A stretch of DNA of 54,130 nucleotides from Rhodospirillales bacterium (lineage in GTDB: Bacteria > Pseudomonadota > Alphaproteobacteria > Rhodospirillales > JANQFP01), in assembly GCA_028277795.1 (NCBI GenBank), contig JANQFP010000158.1:1-54130 (forward strand). Direction: 5' to 3'. Position 1 is the stretch's first letter; each line of letters opens with the position of its first letter. Below the pieces are notes generated by a model. That model did no database searches. It was not told the DNA's origin and saw only the letters and a program-made list of their open reading frames with translations. Below, piece after piece: positions 47,449 to 54,066 of the stretch. Made by a program: the position numbers and the translations under genes.

Positions 47449-47559
47449 CCGGCCGCGCTCGCTTGACTCCCTCGCCGGGGCTCCCGGACAATGACGGCCA
47501 TCCGACACTCAACGAGGCCGGAGGCCGTGGCGCGGTCAGACCCGTCAGCGCATGGGACC

Positions 47560-49557
47560 ATGAATGCGGGCGAGGCTCTGCTCGAACCGGCTCTCAGTCG
47601 TGGCCTCGCGACCGCCCCCGCCGTGATCGGCGGCGACCGGACCGTCACCTACGGCGAACTGGACGCGTGGGCGGCCCAATGCGGGCACGCCGCGCGGGAG
47701 CTGGGCATCGGCCGGGGCGACCGGGTGGTCATGGTGCTGCGCGACACGCCCGACTTCTTCGCCTTCTATCTCGGAGTCCTAAAGATCGGTGCCGTGCCGG
47801 TGGCCTTGAGCGTCCGCGCGACGGCCGCGGAGCTCAGGTTCGTCATCGAGGACAGCGGCTGCCGGCTGGTGGTGGTGGACGCCGAGTTGGTCTCCTGCCT
47901 GGAGGCCGCGACGGCGAGGCTCGCCGCGGCGCCGGCGCTGATGGTCGCCGGCCGCGCGGTTGGCGGCCACGCGTTGCTCAATGACGCGGTACGCGGGCAG
48001 CCGGACCGGCTGCACCCGGAGCCGATGGCAGCCGACGACATGGCCTTCTGGATGTACACGTCGGGCACCACGGGGCCGCCCAAGGCGGCCGTCCACCGCC
48101 AGGGCGCGGTGCTGACGGCGGATCGCTTCCTGGGCGAGGTGCTGGGCGTGGGGCCCGGGGACCGCCTGTTCTGCTCGTCCAAGCTGTTCTTCGCCTATGC
48201 CTTGGGCCATGCGCTGTTCGGCGTGCTGCGACGCGGGGCCACCGCCATCCTCTATGCCGACTGGCCGACGCCCGAGGCCGTGTGCGAGGTGGTGGCGCGC
48301 CATCGCCCGACGATCCTGCTCAGCGTGCCGACGTTCTATCGCAACCTGCTGCGGGCCGGCGCGGCCAAGGAGCCGGCCCTGCGCGCCGTGCGCCACTTCG
48401 TCTCCGCCGGCGAGAGGCTGCCGGAGATCGTCCTGGAACGCTGGCGGGCCGCCGTCGGCAAGCCCATCGTCGAGGCGATCGGGGCCACCGAGGCCGGCTT
48501 TCTTTTTCTGGCCAACGACCCCGACGACGTACGGGTCGGGTCGTGCGGCCGACCGACACCGGGGACCGAGGTGCGGCTTCTCGACGAGGATGACCGTCCG
48601 GTCACCGAGCCCGACGTCCCCGGCGTCCTCTGGGTGCGCATGGACAGCATCGCCGGCGGCTACTGGCGCCAGCCGGAGAAGACCGCCGCCGCGTTCCGGG
48701 ATGGCTGGTACCGCACCGGCGACGTGTTCACGGTGGATGCCGACGGCCGCTACCGGCATCAGGGCCGGGCCGACGACATGCTCAAGATCTCCGGCCAGTG
48801 GGTCAGCCCGGCCGAGATCGAGGAGCACGTCCTGGCCTGTCCCGGCGTGGGGGCGGCGGCGGTGGTCGGGGTGGCGGACGGAGACGGTCTGACCCGGCTC
48901 GCCCTGTTCGTGACCGCCCCCGACGAAGCCGACACCGAGGCCCTGGAGGCGCGGATCACCGAACACCTGCTCGGCCGCTTGGCCGTCCACAAGTGCCCGC
49001 GGCGGGTCCGGGTGCTGGAGGACCTGCCGTGCACCGCCACCGGCAAGGTGCAGCGCTTCCGGCTGCGGGAGATGGCGCGGGACCTGGTGGGCGGCATGGC
49101 GGCATTGCTCTTGTCCGCCACCGTCGCCGCCCAGGCCGCGGGCCCGGCGCAGGTCTTGGATGCCGAGACTCTGATCGTCGACGGCCGCCGGGTGTGCCTG
49201 GCCGGCATCGACGCGCCCGAGCCCGGCCAGCGGTGCACCACCCGCCATGGCAACGCCTACGATTGCCATCGGGTGGCGGCGGCCGGCCTCAAGGACCTGA
49301 CGGCCGGGGCCACGGTGCGCTGCCGGCTCACTGGGGCCGTGCGCGGCGGCTGCCCTTTGGCCACCTGCACGGCCGACGGCTACGACCTGTCGGAAGGCAT
49401 GACCTATACAGGCTGGGCCCTGGCCGACCCGGAGACCGGCGGCGCCTACAAGCGGTTCGAGGACACGGCGCGCCGCAAGGGCCATGGCCTGTGGGGCGGG
49501 ACCTTCCGCCGGCCATGGGAGGTGCGGCGGGCTAGCGGCGATCTCACGCCGAATTGA
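47560..49557 (+). CDS. Benzoate-CoA ligase-like enzyme, frame open into a thermonuclease domain
   Basis: A 665-residue ORF. Residues 1 to about 505 are an adenylate-forming CoA ligase: AMP motif YTSGTTGPPKA, A5 GATEAGF, YRTGDVF, and the C-terminal catalytic lysine in TATGKVQRFRLRE. Sequence style is closest to the benzoate-CoA ligase family. The end of the ligase runs with no stop into MARDLVGGMAALLLSATVAAQA, a signal-peptide-like stretch, and then a staphylococcal nuclease-like domain (LAGIDAPEPGQRC). The nuclease could be translated separately from ATG 49072 or 49096. The start 47560 is chosen by homology; 47491 is an alternative. The domain pair is unexpected. Confidence 0.8.
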   Translation: MNAGEALLEPALSRGLATAPAVIGGDRTVTYGELDAWAAQCGHAARELGIGRGDRVVMVLRDTPDFFAFYLGVLKIGAVPVALSVRATAAELRFVIEDSGCRLVVVDAELVSCLEAATARLAAAPALMVAGRAVGGHALLNDAVRGQPDRLHPEPMAADDMAFWMYTSGTTGPPKAAVHRQGAVLTADRFLGEVLGVGPGDRLFCSSKLFFAYALGHALFGVLRRGATAILYADWPTPEAVCEVVARHRPTILLSVPTFYRNLLRAGAAKEPALRAVRHFVSAGERLPEIVLERWRAAVGKPIVEAIGATEAGFLFLANDPDDVRVGSCGRPTPGTEVRLLDEDDRPVTEPDVPGVLWVRMDSIAGGYWRQPEKTAAAFRDGWYRTGDVFTVDADGRYRHQGRADDMLKISGQWVSPAEIEEHVLACPGVGAAAVVGVADGDGLTRLALFVTAPDEADTEALEARITEHLLGRLAVHKCPRRVRVLEDLPCTATGKVQRFRLREMARDLVGGMAALLLSATVAAQAAGPAQVLDAETLIVDGRRVCLAGIDAPEPGQRCTTRHGNAYDCHRVAAAGLKDLTAGATVRCRLTGAVRGGCPLATCTADGYDLSEGMTYTGWALADPETGGAYKRFEDTARRKGHGLWGGTFRRPWEVRRASGDLTPN

Positions 49558-49622: not shown

Positions 49623-50822
49623 ATGGCTCTTGCGTCGGCGGACGGTCGGGTGCCCGTCCGATGGCTGTTCTGGACGATGGCGTTCGCCGCGGTGGTCGCG
49701 GCGTTCGCCCTGCTGGTGGCCGAGGGCGGCCGTATGGCCGTCCTGTTCGCCATCGGCCTGGCCATGGGGGTGACCCTCTACCACGGAGCCTTCGGGTTCA
49801 CCGGGGCCTACCGCCGGGCCATCTCGGAGAAGGACATCTCGGGCGTGGCGGCGCAGCTGATCATGATCGCCGCCGCCATCCTGCTGTTCGCCCCGGTCCT
49901 CGCCGCCGGCAGCGCCCTGGGCCGGGGCGTCGCCGCGTCGGTGGCGCCGGTCAGCGTTTCCATGGCCTTCGGCGCCTTCCTGTTCGGCATCGGCATGCAG
50001 CTCGGCGGAAGCTGCGCCTCGGGGACCCTGTATACCTCCGGTGGCGGCAACCCGCGCATGATCCTGATGCTGGCCTTCTTCTGCGTCGGCGCCTTCTGGG
50101 GCAGCCTTGATCTCGGGTGGTGGCAGGGCCTGCCGGGCATCGGCGCCGTGTCCCTGGCCGAGACCCTGGGATGGACGGGCGCCGTGGCGACCCAGCTCGT
50201 GGCCCTGGGGCTGATCTACCTGGCTCTGCGCCTGCTCGGCGGCCGCCACAAGCGGTCCCTGTGGTGGGATGGGTCCGTTTCCTGGCGTGACCTGCTGCGC
50301 GGCCCCTGGCCGCTGCTGCTGAGCGCCGGCCTGCTGGCCCTGCTCAACTGGATTACCCTGCTGACGGCCGGGCATGCCTGGTCCATCACCTGGGCGTTCT
50401 CCTTGTGGGGGGCCAAGGCGGCGGTGCTGCTGGGATGGGACCCGGCGACCAGCGCCTTCTGGAGCGGCGCCTTCCAGCAGGTCGCCCTGGCGCGCCCCAT
50501 CTGGTCCGACACGGTGTCGGTCATGAACATCGGCATCATCGGCGGGGCAGTGATGGCCTCGGCCCTGAGCGGCCGGTTCGCCACCCACGCGCCGTCGACG
50601 CCGCTGTCGGTCCTGGCAGTGGTGCTGGGCGGCCTGATGATGGGCTACGGGGCCCGCCTGGCCTACGGCTGCAACATCGGCGCCTTCTTCAGCGGCGTCG
50701 CGTCGACCAGCCTCCACGGCTGGCTATGGATACTCTGTGCTGTTCCCGGCAACTACGTGGGCATCGGGCTCCGCGGCCTGCTGCGGCTCGACCAGGGGCA
50801 GCAGGCGGCCAGCCCGGCCTGA
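49623..50822 (+). CDS. YeeE/YedE family transporter (thiosulfate type)
   Basis: A 399-residue membrane protein with about nine to ten helices. The two halves each have the conserved cysteine motif: GMQLGGSCASGTLY and MGYGARLAYGCNIGAFFSG, which in characterised YeeE (TsuA) pass thiosulfate by cysteine hydrogen bonding. So thiosulfate or a related sulfur compound is the likely substrate. It is 66 bp after the nuclease domain and 54 bp before a secreted protein of the same strand, so it probably forms a small unit with the latter. Confidence 0.88.
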   Translation: MALASADGRVPVRWLFWTMAFAAVVAAFALLVAEGGRMAVLFAIGLAMGVTLYHGAFGFTGAYRRAISEKDISGVAAQLIMIAAAILLFAPVLAAGSALGRGVAASVAPVSVSMAFGAFLFGIGMQLGGSCASGTLYTSGGGNPRMILMLAFFCVGAFWGSLDLGWWQGLPGIGAVSLAETLGWTGAVATQLVALGLIYLALRLLGGRHKRSLWWDGSVSWRDLLRGPWPLLLSAGLLALLNWITLLTAGHAWSITWAFSLWGAKAAVLLGWDPATSAFWSGAFQQVALARPIWSDTVSVMNIGIIGGAVMASALSGRFATHAPSTPLSVLAVVLGGLMMGYGARLAYGCNIGAFFSGVASTSLHGWLWILCAVPGNYVGIGLRGLLRLDQGQQAASPA

Positions 50823-50875: not shown

Positions 50876-51349
50876 GTGCGGAACTCAACCCTGCTCGGCG
50901 CCACCGCGGTCGCGCTGCTCTTGGGCGCAGCACTCCCGGCGGGCGGCGCCCACCATGAGAAGGTGATCGAACTGACCCAGACCCCATGCCAGTTCCTCGA
51001 GGCGGAGAAGGACCACGGCTTCAGCACCGCCAAGAAGGCCGACTGCGAGGCCATCAACGCCCGCACCGGGGCCGATCGCCTGGCCAAGGCCAAGGTGCTG
51101 GAGCTGGCGCCCGGCGACTACGTGTTCCGGGTGAGCAACAAGAACGTCCCCTATGCCCTCGGCTTCTGGCTCCGGGAGAAGGGCTACGACTGGCGCAATC
51201 CCCTGCACAAGCTGAACAAGGTCAGCGTCTCCGGCGGCGGCCTGACGACCGGCGCCACCAAGGACTACGCGGTGACCTTGAAGCCGGGCGAATACGTGTA
51301 CTCGTGCCCCCTCAACCCGACTCCCGACTACCGGATCGTCGTCAAGTAA
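50876..51349 (+). CDS. Secreted protein of unknown function (cupredoxin-like end)
   Basis: A 157-residue protein with a signal peptide (LLGATAVALLLGAALPAGG, then HHEK). GTG 50876 follows a very strong AAGGAGG. The mature part has three Cys (TPCQFLEAE, KADCEAI, YSCPLNPTPDY) and a beta-rich C-terminal half (GDYVFRVSNKNVPYALGFW; LKPGEYVYSCPLNPTPDY) that recalls the cupredoxin fold, including a late Cys in place of the usual copper loop. The HxxxM part is absent, so copper binding is not shown. I cannot name its family. Together with the YeeE protein it may handle a sulfur or metal compound. Confidence 0.75.
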   Translation: MRNSTLLGATAVALLLGAALPAGGAHHEKVIELTQTPCQFLEAEKDHGFSTAKKADCEAINARTGADRLAKAKVLELAPGDYVFRVSNKNVPYALGFWLREKGYDWRNPLHKLNKVSVSGGGLTTGATKDYAVTLKPGEYVYSCPLNPTPDYRIVVK

Positions 51350-51358
51350 GGGTCAGGC

Positions 51359-52258
51359 TCACCGGTCGCCCCCGTCCTCTAGCACCAGCCGGAACCCGAT
51401 GAGGATGTGCTTGAGGGCGGCGGGCCGGGTGTGCCGCGCGGCCGGGCGGCAGACTCCGCACCCGCGGTCGTCCCATGAGCCGCCCTTGACGATGAACCGT
51501 CCCGGGGCCGCGGCATCGGCGGTCCACTCGAACACCTGGCCGGCGGCATCCAGCATGCCGTAAGGGCTGGCGCCGGCGGGGAAACGCCCCACCGGGAGGG
51601 TGTCGAACGGCCCGGCGTCGTGGCTGTTCAGGCGCGTCGGGTCGAAGGCATCGCCCCAAGGGAATCTGCGGCCGTCGGTGCCGCGGGCGGCCTTCTCCCA
51701 CTCGATCTCCGTGGGCAGCCGCCAGGTGTGGCCGGTCCGCCGCGACAGCCACGCGGCGTAGCGTTCCGCATCCGCATGGGACACCAGCACCACCGGGTGT
51801 TCGCCGCGTCCTGCCGGCACCGTGCCGCCGGTCCAGGCGTGGCGTCGCGTCCGCGCGAAGGGATGGATCAGTCCGTAACCGGCCCAGGTGCCGGCGGTCA
51901 CGTCCGGTACCGGGTGGCCGGTGTCGCGCACGAAGGCGGCGTACTGGGCATTGGTGATGGCGGTGCCGGTGATGGCGAAGGCGCCGGTGCGCACGGTCGC
52001 GCGCGGTCGCTCGCGCTCGTACCAACGGCCGCGTCGGGTGCGGTCGTGGCCGTACGCCACCTCGTCCAGACGGTAGGCGGCGTCCCGCTCTGCGCGGTCC
52101 GATCCGGCGATGAACGGGCCGGCCGAGACCGCCACGGTGGGCGGCACCGGGACCCCGTTCGGAGGCGCCGCCGAGGCCGCCGGGACTCCCCAATCAACGA
52201 CCGCCAGAACGAGCGGCAAACACAGGCGGACCCAAGGGGATCGGAAAATCACAGACAT
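51359..52258 (-). CDS. Secreted SUMF1/FGE-family protein
   Basis: A 299-residue periplasmic protein of the formylglycine-generating-enzyme (SUMF1) family: signal peptide (LCLPLVLAVVDWGVPA), then FAITGTAITNAQYAAF, WRLPTEIEWEKAARG, FPWGDAF, GMLDAAGQVFEWTAD and KGGSWDDRGCGVCRPAARH near the end. In true FGE two cysteines near this end form the copper active site; here a CxxC (CGVC) lies in a similar place. True FGE enzymes oxidise Cys in C-x-P-x-R; the substrate here is not known. It is divergent from the CxP-repeat protein genes. Confidence 0.88.
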   Translation of the reverse strand: MSVIFRSPWVRLCLPLVLAVVDWGVPAASAAPPNGVPVPPTVAVSAGPFIAGSDRAERDAAYRLDEVAYGHDRTRRGRWYERERPRATVRTGAFAITGTAITNAQYAAFVRDTGHPVPDVTAGTWAGYGLIHPFARTRRHAWTGGTVPAGRGEHPVVLVSHADAERYAAWLSRRTGHTWRLPTEIEWEKAARGTDGRRFPWGDAFDPTRLNSHDAGPFDTLPVGRFPAGASPYGMLDAAGQVFEWTADAAAPGRFIVKGGSWDDRGCGVCRPAARHTRPAALKHILIGFRLVLEDGGDR

Positions 52259-52292
52259 GTGATGGGCCGTGACTGGCTGTGGTCCCTCAATT

Positions 52293-52335: not shown

Positions 52336-52361
52336 ACAAATTCGCCAGAGGAGAATTGGAC

Positions 52362-53567
52362 GTGGGGCCGTTCAAATCCAAGCTGAAATCGAGCACCGTT
52401 ATCCCCGTCTGGATCGGGCTCGGGGTGCTTGCCGGAGGACTCGCGGTGGCGGGCTGTACGCAGGCCGGGCCGTCGGACGGTTCGGGCAATCCGGCGGCGG
52501 TGGCCAAGAACCCCTGCAACCCATGCAATCCCTGCGCTGCCAAGAATCCTTGCAACCCCTGTAATCCCTGTGCCGCCAAGAATCCGTGCGCGGCCAAGAA
52601 CCCCTGCAATCCGTGCAATCCCTGTGCGGCCAGGAATCCCTGCAATCCGTGCGCGGCGCGGAACCCGTGCGGCCCCTGCAATCCGTGCAATCCCTGCGCA
52701 GCCGCCGCGGCCCTGTCCAAGAACTGCTTCGTGCCGCGACTGATGGCGTTGGCCAATCCCTGCAATCCCTGCGCTGCCCGGAACCCCTGCAATCCGTGCG
52801 CGGCGAAGAACCCGTGTAACCCCTGCAATCCTTGTGCGGCGAAAAACCCGTGCGCGGCCAAGGCATGGAATCCGTGCAACCCCTGCGCCGCCAAGAACCC
52901 GTGCAATCCGTGCGCGGCCAGAAATCCCTGCAATCCGTGCGCGGCGAAGAACCCGTGCAACCCCTGTAATCCCTGTGCCGCCAAGAACCCCTGCGCTGCC
53001 AAGAACCCGTGTAGCCCCTGCAATCCCTGTAATCCGTGCAATCCGTGCGCGGCCGGAGATGCGGTGGAGATCAGCGCCGCCGAGGCCCGTGCCGTCTACG
53101 ACTGCCTGAAGCCGGAGATGACGTCGGGTTACGTGAAGGCGGGGCTGTCCAATGTTCGTGGGTACCTGGGTTGGACCAACGCGGCGACGGCGCCGTACCT
53201 GGGCGCCACCCATGGCAACCGCTACGTCAACAACTGGGTCAACGGCACCGGGCGTGCCGCCTACCTCAAATACGAGGACGTGGGCCGGGTGCCGGTGGGG
53301 ACGGTGGTGGCCAAGGACAGCTTCGTCGTGCATCCCAATGGGCGCACCGGGGCCGGGCCCTTGTTCGTCATGGAGAAGATGGGGCGTGGGTTCAACGCCA
53401 AGACGGACGACTGGCGCTACACCATGGTGATGCCGGACGGCGCCGTTTTCGGAACCACCAACGGCACGAACTCGGCCGGCGTGACGTTCTGCGCCGAATG
53501 CCATGCCGCGGTCGCCGAGGACCAGGACTCGCTGATGTTCCTGCCGGCGGAGTTCCGCATGCAGTAG
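52362..53567 (+). CDS. NPC-repeat lipoprotein with C-terminal cytochrome P460 domain
   Basis: A 401-residue lipoprotein. The signal part ends in the lipobox LAVAGC (Cys32). Residues 50-229 are a Cys-Asn-Pro array: 37 NPC triplets plus one GPC and one SPC, spaced by AAK, AAR or AAKAW, and broken once by a 19-residue segment with KNCF. About 40 cysteines lie here. From residue 235 a cytochrome P460 family domain follows ([35 protein letters not shown], then FCAECH with haem site Cys377-Cys380-His381). The GTG 52362 start has AGAGGAG at correct spacing; TTG 52356 is too near it. I know no characterised protein like this. Confidence 0.88.
52509..53048 (+). repeat. Cys-Asn-Pro coding repeat array 1
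   Basis: 180 codons with 37 NPC triplets, about 9-bp units, in frame within the lipoprotein gene. The codons vary (AAC/AAT, CCC/CCG/CCT/CCA, TGC/TGT) while the peptide hardly varies. Confidence 0.95.
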
Positions 53568-53635: not shown

Positions 53636-53914
53636 ATGTTGAAGAAGACCGCAACCGCGACCGCCGTGAGCCTGGTGGCCCTGGCCGGCGCCACCGCCAT
53701 GACGGCCCTGCCCCAGGCGCAGGCCGCCGGCAGCGTGCAGATCGCCGGCAATCCGTGCAACCCGTGCAAGGCGAAGAACCCCTGCAATCCGTGCGCGGGG
53801 AAGAACCCGTGCGCGGCCCGGAACCCGTGCAATCCGTGTGCGGCGAAGAACCCCTGCGCCGCCAAGAACCCTTGCAATCCCTGCAATCCCTGCGCGGCCA
53901 AGAAGCGCTACTGA
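53636..53914 (+). CDS. Small secreted NPC-repeat protein (92 aa)
   Basis: A 92-residue protein with a clean signal peptide ([18 protein letters not shown], cleavage near AQA/AGS). The mature part is a short lead and residues 39-86 that contain 11 NPC triplets spaced by KAK, AGK, AAR and AAK, ending KKRY. ATG 53636 has AAGGAAGGAAAGG. It lies 68 bp after the NPC/P460 lipoprotein, in the same direction, and is followed by a terminator-like hairpin. It looks like a free form of the repeat domain, a possible metal-binding or thiol-rich peptide. Confidence 0.9.
53750..53893 (+). repeat. Cys-Asn-Pro coding repeat array 2
   Basis: 48 codons with 11 NPC triplets, the same unit as in array 1 but shorter. 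Confidence 0.95.
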
Positions 53915-53971: not shown

Positions 53972-54031
53972 GATCTTTGTCTAATTGGTTTGACTCGCCC
54001 GCCGGCGTCGGCTTGGGTGGGCGAAATGGCG

Positions 54032-54066
54032 CTAGTGGTCTGGATGAGACATAAGGTACCCATACG
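54032..54066. repeat. Terminal inverted repeat, right copy
   Basis: Inverted copy of positions 65-99 (33 of 35 bases). Near the window end GATGCTGGAGCATC is also a perfect hairpin. See the left copy. Confidence 0.7.

Follow-up and report, generated by a model that had tools for sequence, protein, structure and literature searches.

Haem domains fused to long cysteine arrays in a possible envelope gene set of marine Proteobacteria

The described systems closest to the locus presented here are the cytochrome P460/c'-beta superfamily, the bufferins, the SoxA/TsdA cytochromes, the FGE/SUMF1 family and metallothionein-like proteins. Rare bufferin fusions of the form Buf1|Cytochrom_C|FGE have been reported, and FGEs have been noted as cuproenzymes (PMC12452194). 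In TsdA, the haem-ligand cysteine carries a catalytic thiosulfonate intermediate (PMC4423706). Within the P460/c'-beta superfamily, the positions of Phe61 (7ead) and Met79 (7s5o) correspond to the cross-link Lys70 of NeP460 (Table 2, PMC11928373). The original prediction for this DNA named no characterised protein of its build, which agrees with the open-access literature, where we found none; a text search of that literature (5.39 million open papers; subscription papers lay outside it) returned no paper that uses the array strings in a biological sense and none that mentions DUF6969.

The window analysed is a stretch of 54,130 nucleotides from a Rhodospirillales bacterium (contig JANQFP010000158.1). 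At its right end the gene order is YeeE, cupredoxin-like, FGE-like (divergent), array-P460, short array gene and contig end, with the following features:

49623..50822, forward strand: YeeE/YedE-family sulfur transporter (PF04143, E 2.3e-62), a neighbour in at least 22 loci
50888..51349 (ORF segment used), forward strand: exported cupredoxin-like protein, next to array genes in at least 22 other loci
51359..52258, reverse strand: exported SUMF1/FGE-like protein (PF03781, E 1.2e-42) with the family-conserved GSWDDKGCGVCRPAARH, a neighbour in at least 39 loci
52249..52274, no strand assigned: TCACA-N4-TGTGA-N7-TGACT, a motif resembling an operator, located between the genes for the FGE-like and array-P460 proteins
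52362..53567, forward strand: Cys-array-P460 protein, 401 aa, GTG start, RBS AGGAG at 52349-52353
52362..52460, forward strand: signal peptide that includes the lipobox AVAGC, whose Cys codon is 52455-52457; the lipobox is not kept in relatives
52506..53048, forward strand: Cys array, residues 49-229, 181 aa, exactly 37 NPC and 40 Cys, with repeats also at the DNA level
52717..52751, forward strand: array interruption with the motif NCFVPRL (C-x-[VI]-P-R-[LMI]), found in 31 of the 50 array-P460 ORFs listed
53055..53564, forward strand: cytochrome P460/c'-beta superfamily domain, CAECH near 53490-53504, invariant Lys at domain residue 87
53636..53914, forward strand: second, stand-alone exported NPC-array protein with signal peptide and 11 NPC, equivalents in at least about 70 loci

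The array-P460 ORF, whose stop lies at 53567, encodes 44 cysteines in all. The count originally given, 37 NPC triplets and about 40 cysteines in one ORF, proved exact for the triplets and comes to 40 cysteines within the 181-residue array, where neighbouring cysteines are spaced by 3 (23 times) or 6 (13 times). All 37 triplets read AAY CCN TGY and differ at third positions only, with no change at positions 1 and 2, as expected under selection keeping the protein sequence. This synonymous-only variation and the presence of in-frame arrays at more than 100 loci rule out an assembly or frame artefact; a shift out of frame in relatives, which the original prediction had named as counting against it, was not seen. 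DNA coding for NPCNPC occurs 24 times in this genome, always within the array-P460 ORF or its neighbour, and a reversed control gave 0. That neighbour, the stand-alone array gene directly downstream, was not mentioned in the original prediction.

Relatives were gathered with a pattern scan (NPCNPCAA[K/R-like]NPC, one genome per species), which returned at least 119 stretches. The loci are mostly 8-kb slices, which makes the neighbour counts minimum values; in relatives, ORF starts were estimated mechanically, and cluster labels come from similarity clustering. Among the matches listed, hosts were mainly marine Alphaproteobacteria with some Gammaproteobacteria, including many uncultured marine Rhodospirillales relatives, tubeworm symbionts and the cultured Pelagibius litoralis, Denitrobaculum tricleocarpae, Sneathiella sedimenti and Hahella ganghwensis. 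Three builds recur. An array joined to a P460 domain, the combination for which a database search had been suggested, is present in at least 50 loci; an array joined to a cytochrome c domain in at least 22 (SoxA/TsdA-like in 21 of 22, with L074 of a different type); and a short stand-alone array in at least about 70. In L028 and L046 (Acidobacteria MAG), NPC motifs lie within a predicted membrane protein, and a canonical-looking FGE gene is nearby.

Pooled over the arrays listed, gaps between cysteines were 3 in 1545 of 2843 cases and 6 in 788 of 2843. The NPC sequence itself is dispensable: a P460-type domain in L149 (7248-8546), adjoining DUF6969 and an FGE-like gene, carries a CGAC array in its place. 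Since NPC gives way to CGAC or other spellings in relatives, their sequences identify Cys spacing, rather than Asn-Pro, as the conserved feature of the array. Both the export signal and the lipobox (VAGC) predicted for the window protein are present, but an outer-membrane location did not hold up as a fixed feature. A lipobox-like Cys occurs in 11 of the 50 array-P460 ORFs listed and is missing from the close relative L118; apart from the window's AVAGC, most of these sites resemble AxA|C signal-peptidase-I sites, which rules out an outer-membrane lipoprotein as the general build.

The P460-type haem domain originally read from the CAECH motif is upheld by structure prediction: an AlphaFold (AF2) model of the 170-residue domain (pLDDT 94.3) matched, at probability 1.00, only cytochrome c'-beta and P460 structures in the PDB, and C146, C149 and H150 of the motif are invariant across 33 sequences. 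The suggested Pfam check of the C-terminal part gave a divided answer, in that PF16694 (Cytochrome_P460) was matched by the full protein (E 1.2e-4, 22.9 bits) and by the domain alone (2.3e-5, 25.2 bits), but both values lie below the gathering cut-off of 27 bits, which is a database threshold and not a biochemical feature. Each of the 33 family members in the alignment matches PF16694 at E<=0.01 (best 9.4e-11), and an array-less P460-type paralogue in the same genome (G000:C148:43130-43621; 41% identity) scores 33.1 bits, above the cut-off. As the cut-off is a database threshold, we file the domain by its predicted fold, on which it belongs to the P460/c'-beta superfamily. A phmmer search of the single domain against the PDB had a low yield.

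The putative cross-link position is Lys in 33 of 33 relatives, and other residues of the haem pocket are also invariant. In a profile alignment, Lys87 of the window domain pairs with Phe61 of Thermus cytochrome c'-beta (7ead) and Met79 of NeCP-beta (7s5o), and direct alignment to Nitrosomonas P460 likewise puts it at the Lys70 position. For the distal carboxylate (Glu96/Asp102) the methods disagree: E107 pairs with Glu96 in mafft but not in hhalign.

The cytochrome c domain linked to arrays elsewhere matches PF21342 (SoxA/TsdA) in 18 of 18 members scanned. Its best PDB match is SoxA 1h31, and an invariant Cys, which we infer to be a TsdA-type haem ligand, falls in the column of a SoxA Cys. The window protein lacks this domain, its haem domain being P460-type. 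The hydroxylamine or NO chemistry originally linked to P460-type proteins is not the common denominator, since the haem domain can be exchanged for a SoxA/TsdA-like cytochrome c.

Similarity clustering of ORFs showed DUF6969 to be the most frequent neighbour (at least 53 loci), followed by the FGE-like protein, by YeeE and a histidine kinase (at least 22 each) and by DUF302 (at least 10). The window's FGE-like protein belongs to the SUMF1 fold family and matches FGE structures. Its own family has a conserved GCGVC (CxxC) in the FGE copper-site region, versus CxxxxC in the canonical-looking L046, so that the canonical spacing of the copper-site Cys pair is absent; of the two positions where canonical members have Cys, only one can be aligned. 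A simple FGE substrate by the CxPxR rule can be rejected for the array, as CxPxR was found in no array protein. In the conserved C-x-V-P-R motif the spacing differs from CxPxR by one residue, and array-cytochrome c proteins lack this motif. In the cupredoxin-like neighbour we recognised no clear copper ligands by sequence, and one relative gave a weak PF13473 match.

An exported SNase-like protein is found near arrays in several loci. In the window, 47491-49557 forms one 688-aa frame in which an AMP-binding (acyl-CoA ligase-like) protein continues into an exported SNase-like part at the C-terminus; this part is a separate gene in related loci, and the joined frame may be a fusion, a frameshift or an assembly effect. 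Some stand-alone array genes (L018, L036, L043, L071, L072, L089, L099 and L120) sit in a different cluster with a MerA-like flavoprotein (TIGR02053, below cut-off), the array protein and a histidine kinase, joined in several by a VTT protein; in most of this set the operator half-sites lie about one helical turn further apart.

The motif at 52249-52274 is the sole exact match to its three-part pattern in the genome, and it overlaps the listed start codon of the FGE-like gene, whose true start may therefore lie further inside. A recurrent form, TCACA-N4-TGTGAA-N6-[GT]TGATT, occurs 5' of array genes. Its core, TCAC-N6-GTGA, lies upstream of 20 of 42 genes for array-P460 proteins, of 11 of 68 for short arrays and of 2 of 18 for array-cytochrome c proteins, where dinucleotide shuffles predict 0.02-0.06 (0.02 for the array-P460 set), though kinship of the sequences means that significance is overstated. 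The strict pattern gave only three hits in 385 genomes; one (G001:C90) precedes an NPC array by about 300 bp, and two seem unrelated. In the upstream DNA we recognised none of the known copper regulator sites. The gene set of the envelope is apparently co-regulated.

At the genome level, 37 genomes have two or more NPCNPC hits, and 34 of them contain DUF6969, versus 56 of 348 others (odds ratio 59, Fisher p 5e-21, in a set of 385 genomes of the class and with statistics that ignore kinship). Neither MNIO (12 of 37 array genomes vs 148 of 385 overall) nor SoxY (11 of 37 vs 102 of 385) was enriched, and the window's genome contains no MNIO (PF05114). Twenty DUF6969 loci came from genomes without an NPCNPC match; several have arrays of other spelling (CGAC in L149; NPCAAKNPC), and around others the nearest 5 kb or so contain no array, so the distribution of DUF6969 is broader than that of the arrays. 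The predicted model of the protein (L146 / G000:C252:25102-25806; pLDDT 94.5), which has many invariant His, Asp and Glu residues, found no PDB match (best E 0.84) and is possibly a new metalloenzyme fold.

In this genome 104 bp separate the DUF6969 gene from the end of contig C252. About 36 bp (CTAGTGGTCTGGATGAGACATAAGGTACCCATACGA) are common to the ends of both contigs (window 54031-54066; C252 25812-25847), and the 26-bp core of this repeat has eight copies in the genome. Judged from its sequence, the repeat resembles the terminal repeat of an IS that went in between DUF6969 and the gene for the short array. Since the same repeat stands at both ends, in the orientation expected for two ends of one insertion element, the two contigs are likely, though not proven, to be adjacent.

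At the level of sequence, our analysis establishes the array, the P460-superfamily domain, the export signals, the second array protein, the conserved neighbours and the common upstream motif. The occurrence of two haem folds, the varied spelling of the array and the exported FGE-like protein point to thiols and envelope redox chemistry as the common factor. Our preferred explanation, which falls only just short of what we would call probable, is an exported thiol buffer that would serve Cu(I)-like metals and carry its own haem redox module, set in a conserved envelope gene set. A regular CxxC array in the cell envelope would bind Cu(I)-like soft metals or take up thiol-reactive oxidants, the haem domain would exchange electrons with the array or its ligand, and the exported FGE-like protein might modify or oxidise array thiols or handle copper; the system would then act like a bufferin but without an MNIO enzyme. 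This model is favoured by the retention of Cys spacing while other array residues change, by the recurrent fusion of two different haem folds to arrays, and by the association of DUF6969 with array genomes. Its metal side draws on published cases in which cytochrome c and FGE domains are fused to bufferins (PMC12452194), on the MerA-like flavoprotein and VTT protein beside some array genes, and on two array/DUF6969 clusters among the loci examined, L167 and L157, that adjoin complete bufferin genes. At L167, from Hahella ganghwensis, a DUF2282-MNIO-DUF2063-DoxX bufferin operon directly flanks the genes for array-cytochrome c, DUF6969 and a cupredoxin-like protein, and L157 also has an apparent sigma factor and thioredoxin- and CcdA-like ORFs (judged by eye). 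Several observations argue against the model: the null genome-level result for MNIO and its absence from this genome, the non-canonical Cys spacing of the FGE-like family, the lack of clear copper ligands in the cupredoxin-like neighbour and of a recognised copper regulator site upstream, and the YeeE gene and SoxA/TsdA-like domain, which point to sulfur instead.

This sulfur evidence underlies an alternative that we consider rather unlikely, in which the array is a relay for sulfane sulfur or thiosulfate: YeeE would carry sulfur across the membrane, and the haem domain would oxidatively conjugate a reduced sulfur compound to thiols of the array, a reaction that SoxA/TsdA carry out on a cysteine thiol. 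The uniform PF21342 matches, the alignment of the invariant Cys with SoxA 1h31 and the TsdA thiosulfonate precedent (PMC4423706) are consistent with such a relay, as are YeeE's recurrence beside arrays, including in the window, and the hosts of some array-cytochrome c genes that are thiotrophic by name (tubeworm endosymbionts, Thioploca and Leucothrix). However, the SoxY counts show no association with the Sox pathway, the window's own haem domain is P460-type, not SoxA-type, and most loci, as sampled, contain no YeeE. With evidence on both sides and neither MNIO nor SoxY enriched, we place the metal-leaning buffer first and the sulfur relay second.

A structural or redox-cycling role, in which disulfides would crosslink the array into an envelope layer, or its thiols would form a pool against oxidant stress, with the haem as electron outlet, seems improbable. 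Repetitive, regularly spaced cysteines in an exported protein would suit it, as would the ORFs resembling thioredoxin and CcdA close to one distant cluster, but enzyme-like conserved neighbours and a haem domain whose pocket has invariant residues exceed what a structural protein needs. We judge defence against nitrogen oxides to be more improbable still. Its P460-type haem would bind or oxidise NO or hydroxylamine and its thiols act as a sink for NO or nitrosothiols, consistent with the superfamily fold and with the invariant Lys at the NeP460 cross-link position (Table 2, PMC11928373), yet the distal carboxylate for hydroxylamine oxidation is not securely identified given the differing alignments of E107, a SoxA/TsdA-like cytochrome c replaces the domain in other clusters, and the recurrent neighbours included no conspicuous genes of denitrification or nitrification.

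Returning to the thiol buffer, we tentatively propose, as something somewhat short of probable, that these loci represent a new envelope system, widespread in marine Proteobacteria, in which interchangeable P460- and SoxA/TsdA-type haem domains are fused to long CxxC arrays. That a variant exported FGE, DUF6969 and a common operator complete the system, making it a store of thiols, wired to haem, that would take soft metals or sulfur, is put forward with the same reserve. If true, dense thiol arrays and two unrelated haem folds would link metal or sulfur handling in the envelope to haem redox chemistry, P460-type domains would gain a role outside nitrification, and DUF6969, the variant FGE proteins and a common regulator would acquire a testable context.

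Among known systems, the P460/c'-beta superfamily (PF16694; 2je2, 7zqz) shares with the window protein its fold, a C-terminal CxxCH and Lys at the cross-link position, whereas the fusion to a Cys array, the Pfam score below cut-off, the low identity of about 17-18% with members of solved structure and the insecurely placed distal carboxylate set the protein apart. Bufferins (DUF2282 / Buf_6-12Cys, EGKCG proteins) are likewise exported and Cys-rich, with rare cytochrome c/FGE fusions on their side (PMC12452194) and operons adjoining two related array clusters; the window protein differs in having far more Cys, DUF6969 as a conserved neighbour and no MNIO in its genome, and neither window array protein matched DUF2282 or a Buf_6/12Cys domain (Pfam, NCBIfam). 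Metallothionein-like proteins also have Cys-dense repetitive arrays, whereas the window array is exported, has Pro-rich spacing and is fused to a haem domain. Related clusters resemble the SoxA/TsdA cytochromes in fusing such a haem domain, with its invariant Cys aligned to a SoxA Cys, to arrays, from which the window protein differs by its P460-type domain and the lack of SoxY association. The divergent neighbour is a clear member of the FGE/SUMF1 family (PF03781), though of a family that is exported and carries the conserved GCGVC where L046 has CxxxxC.
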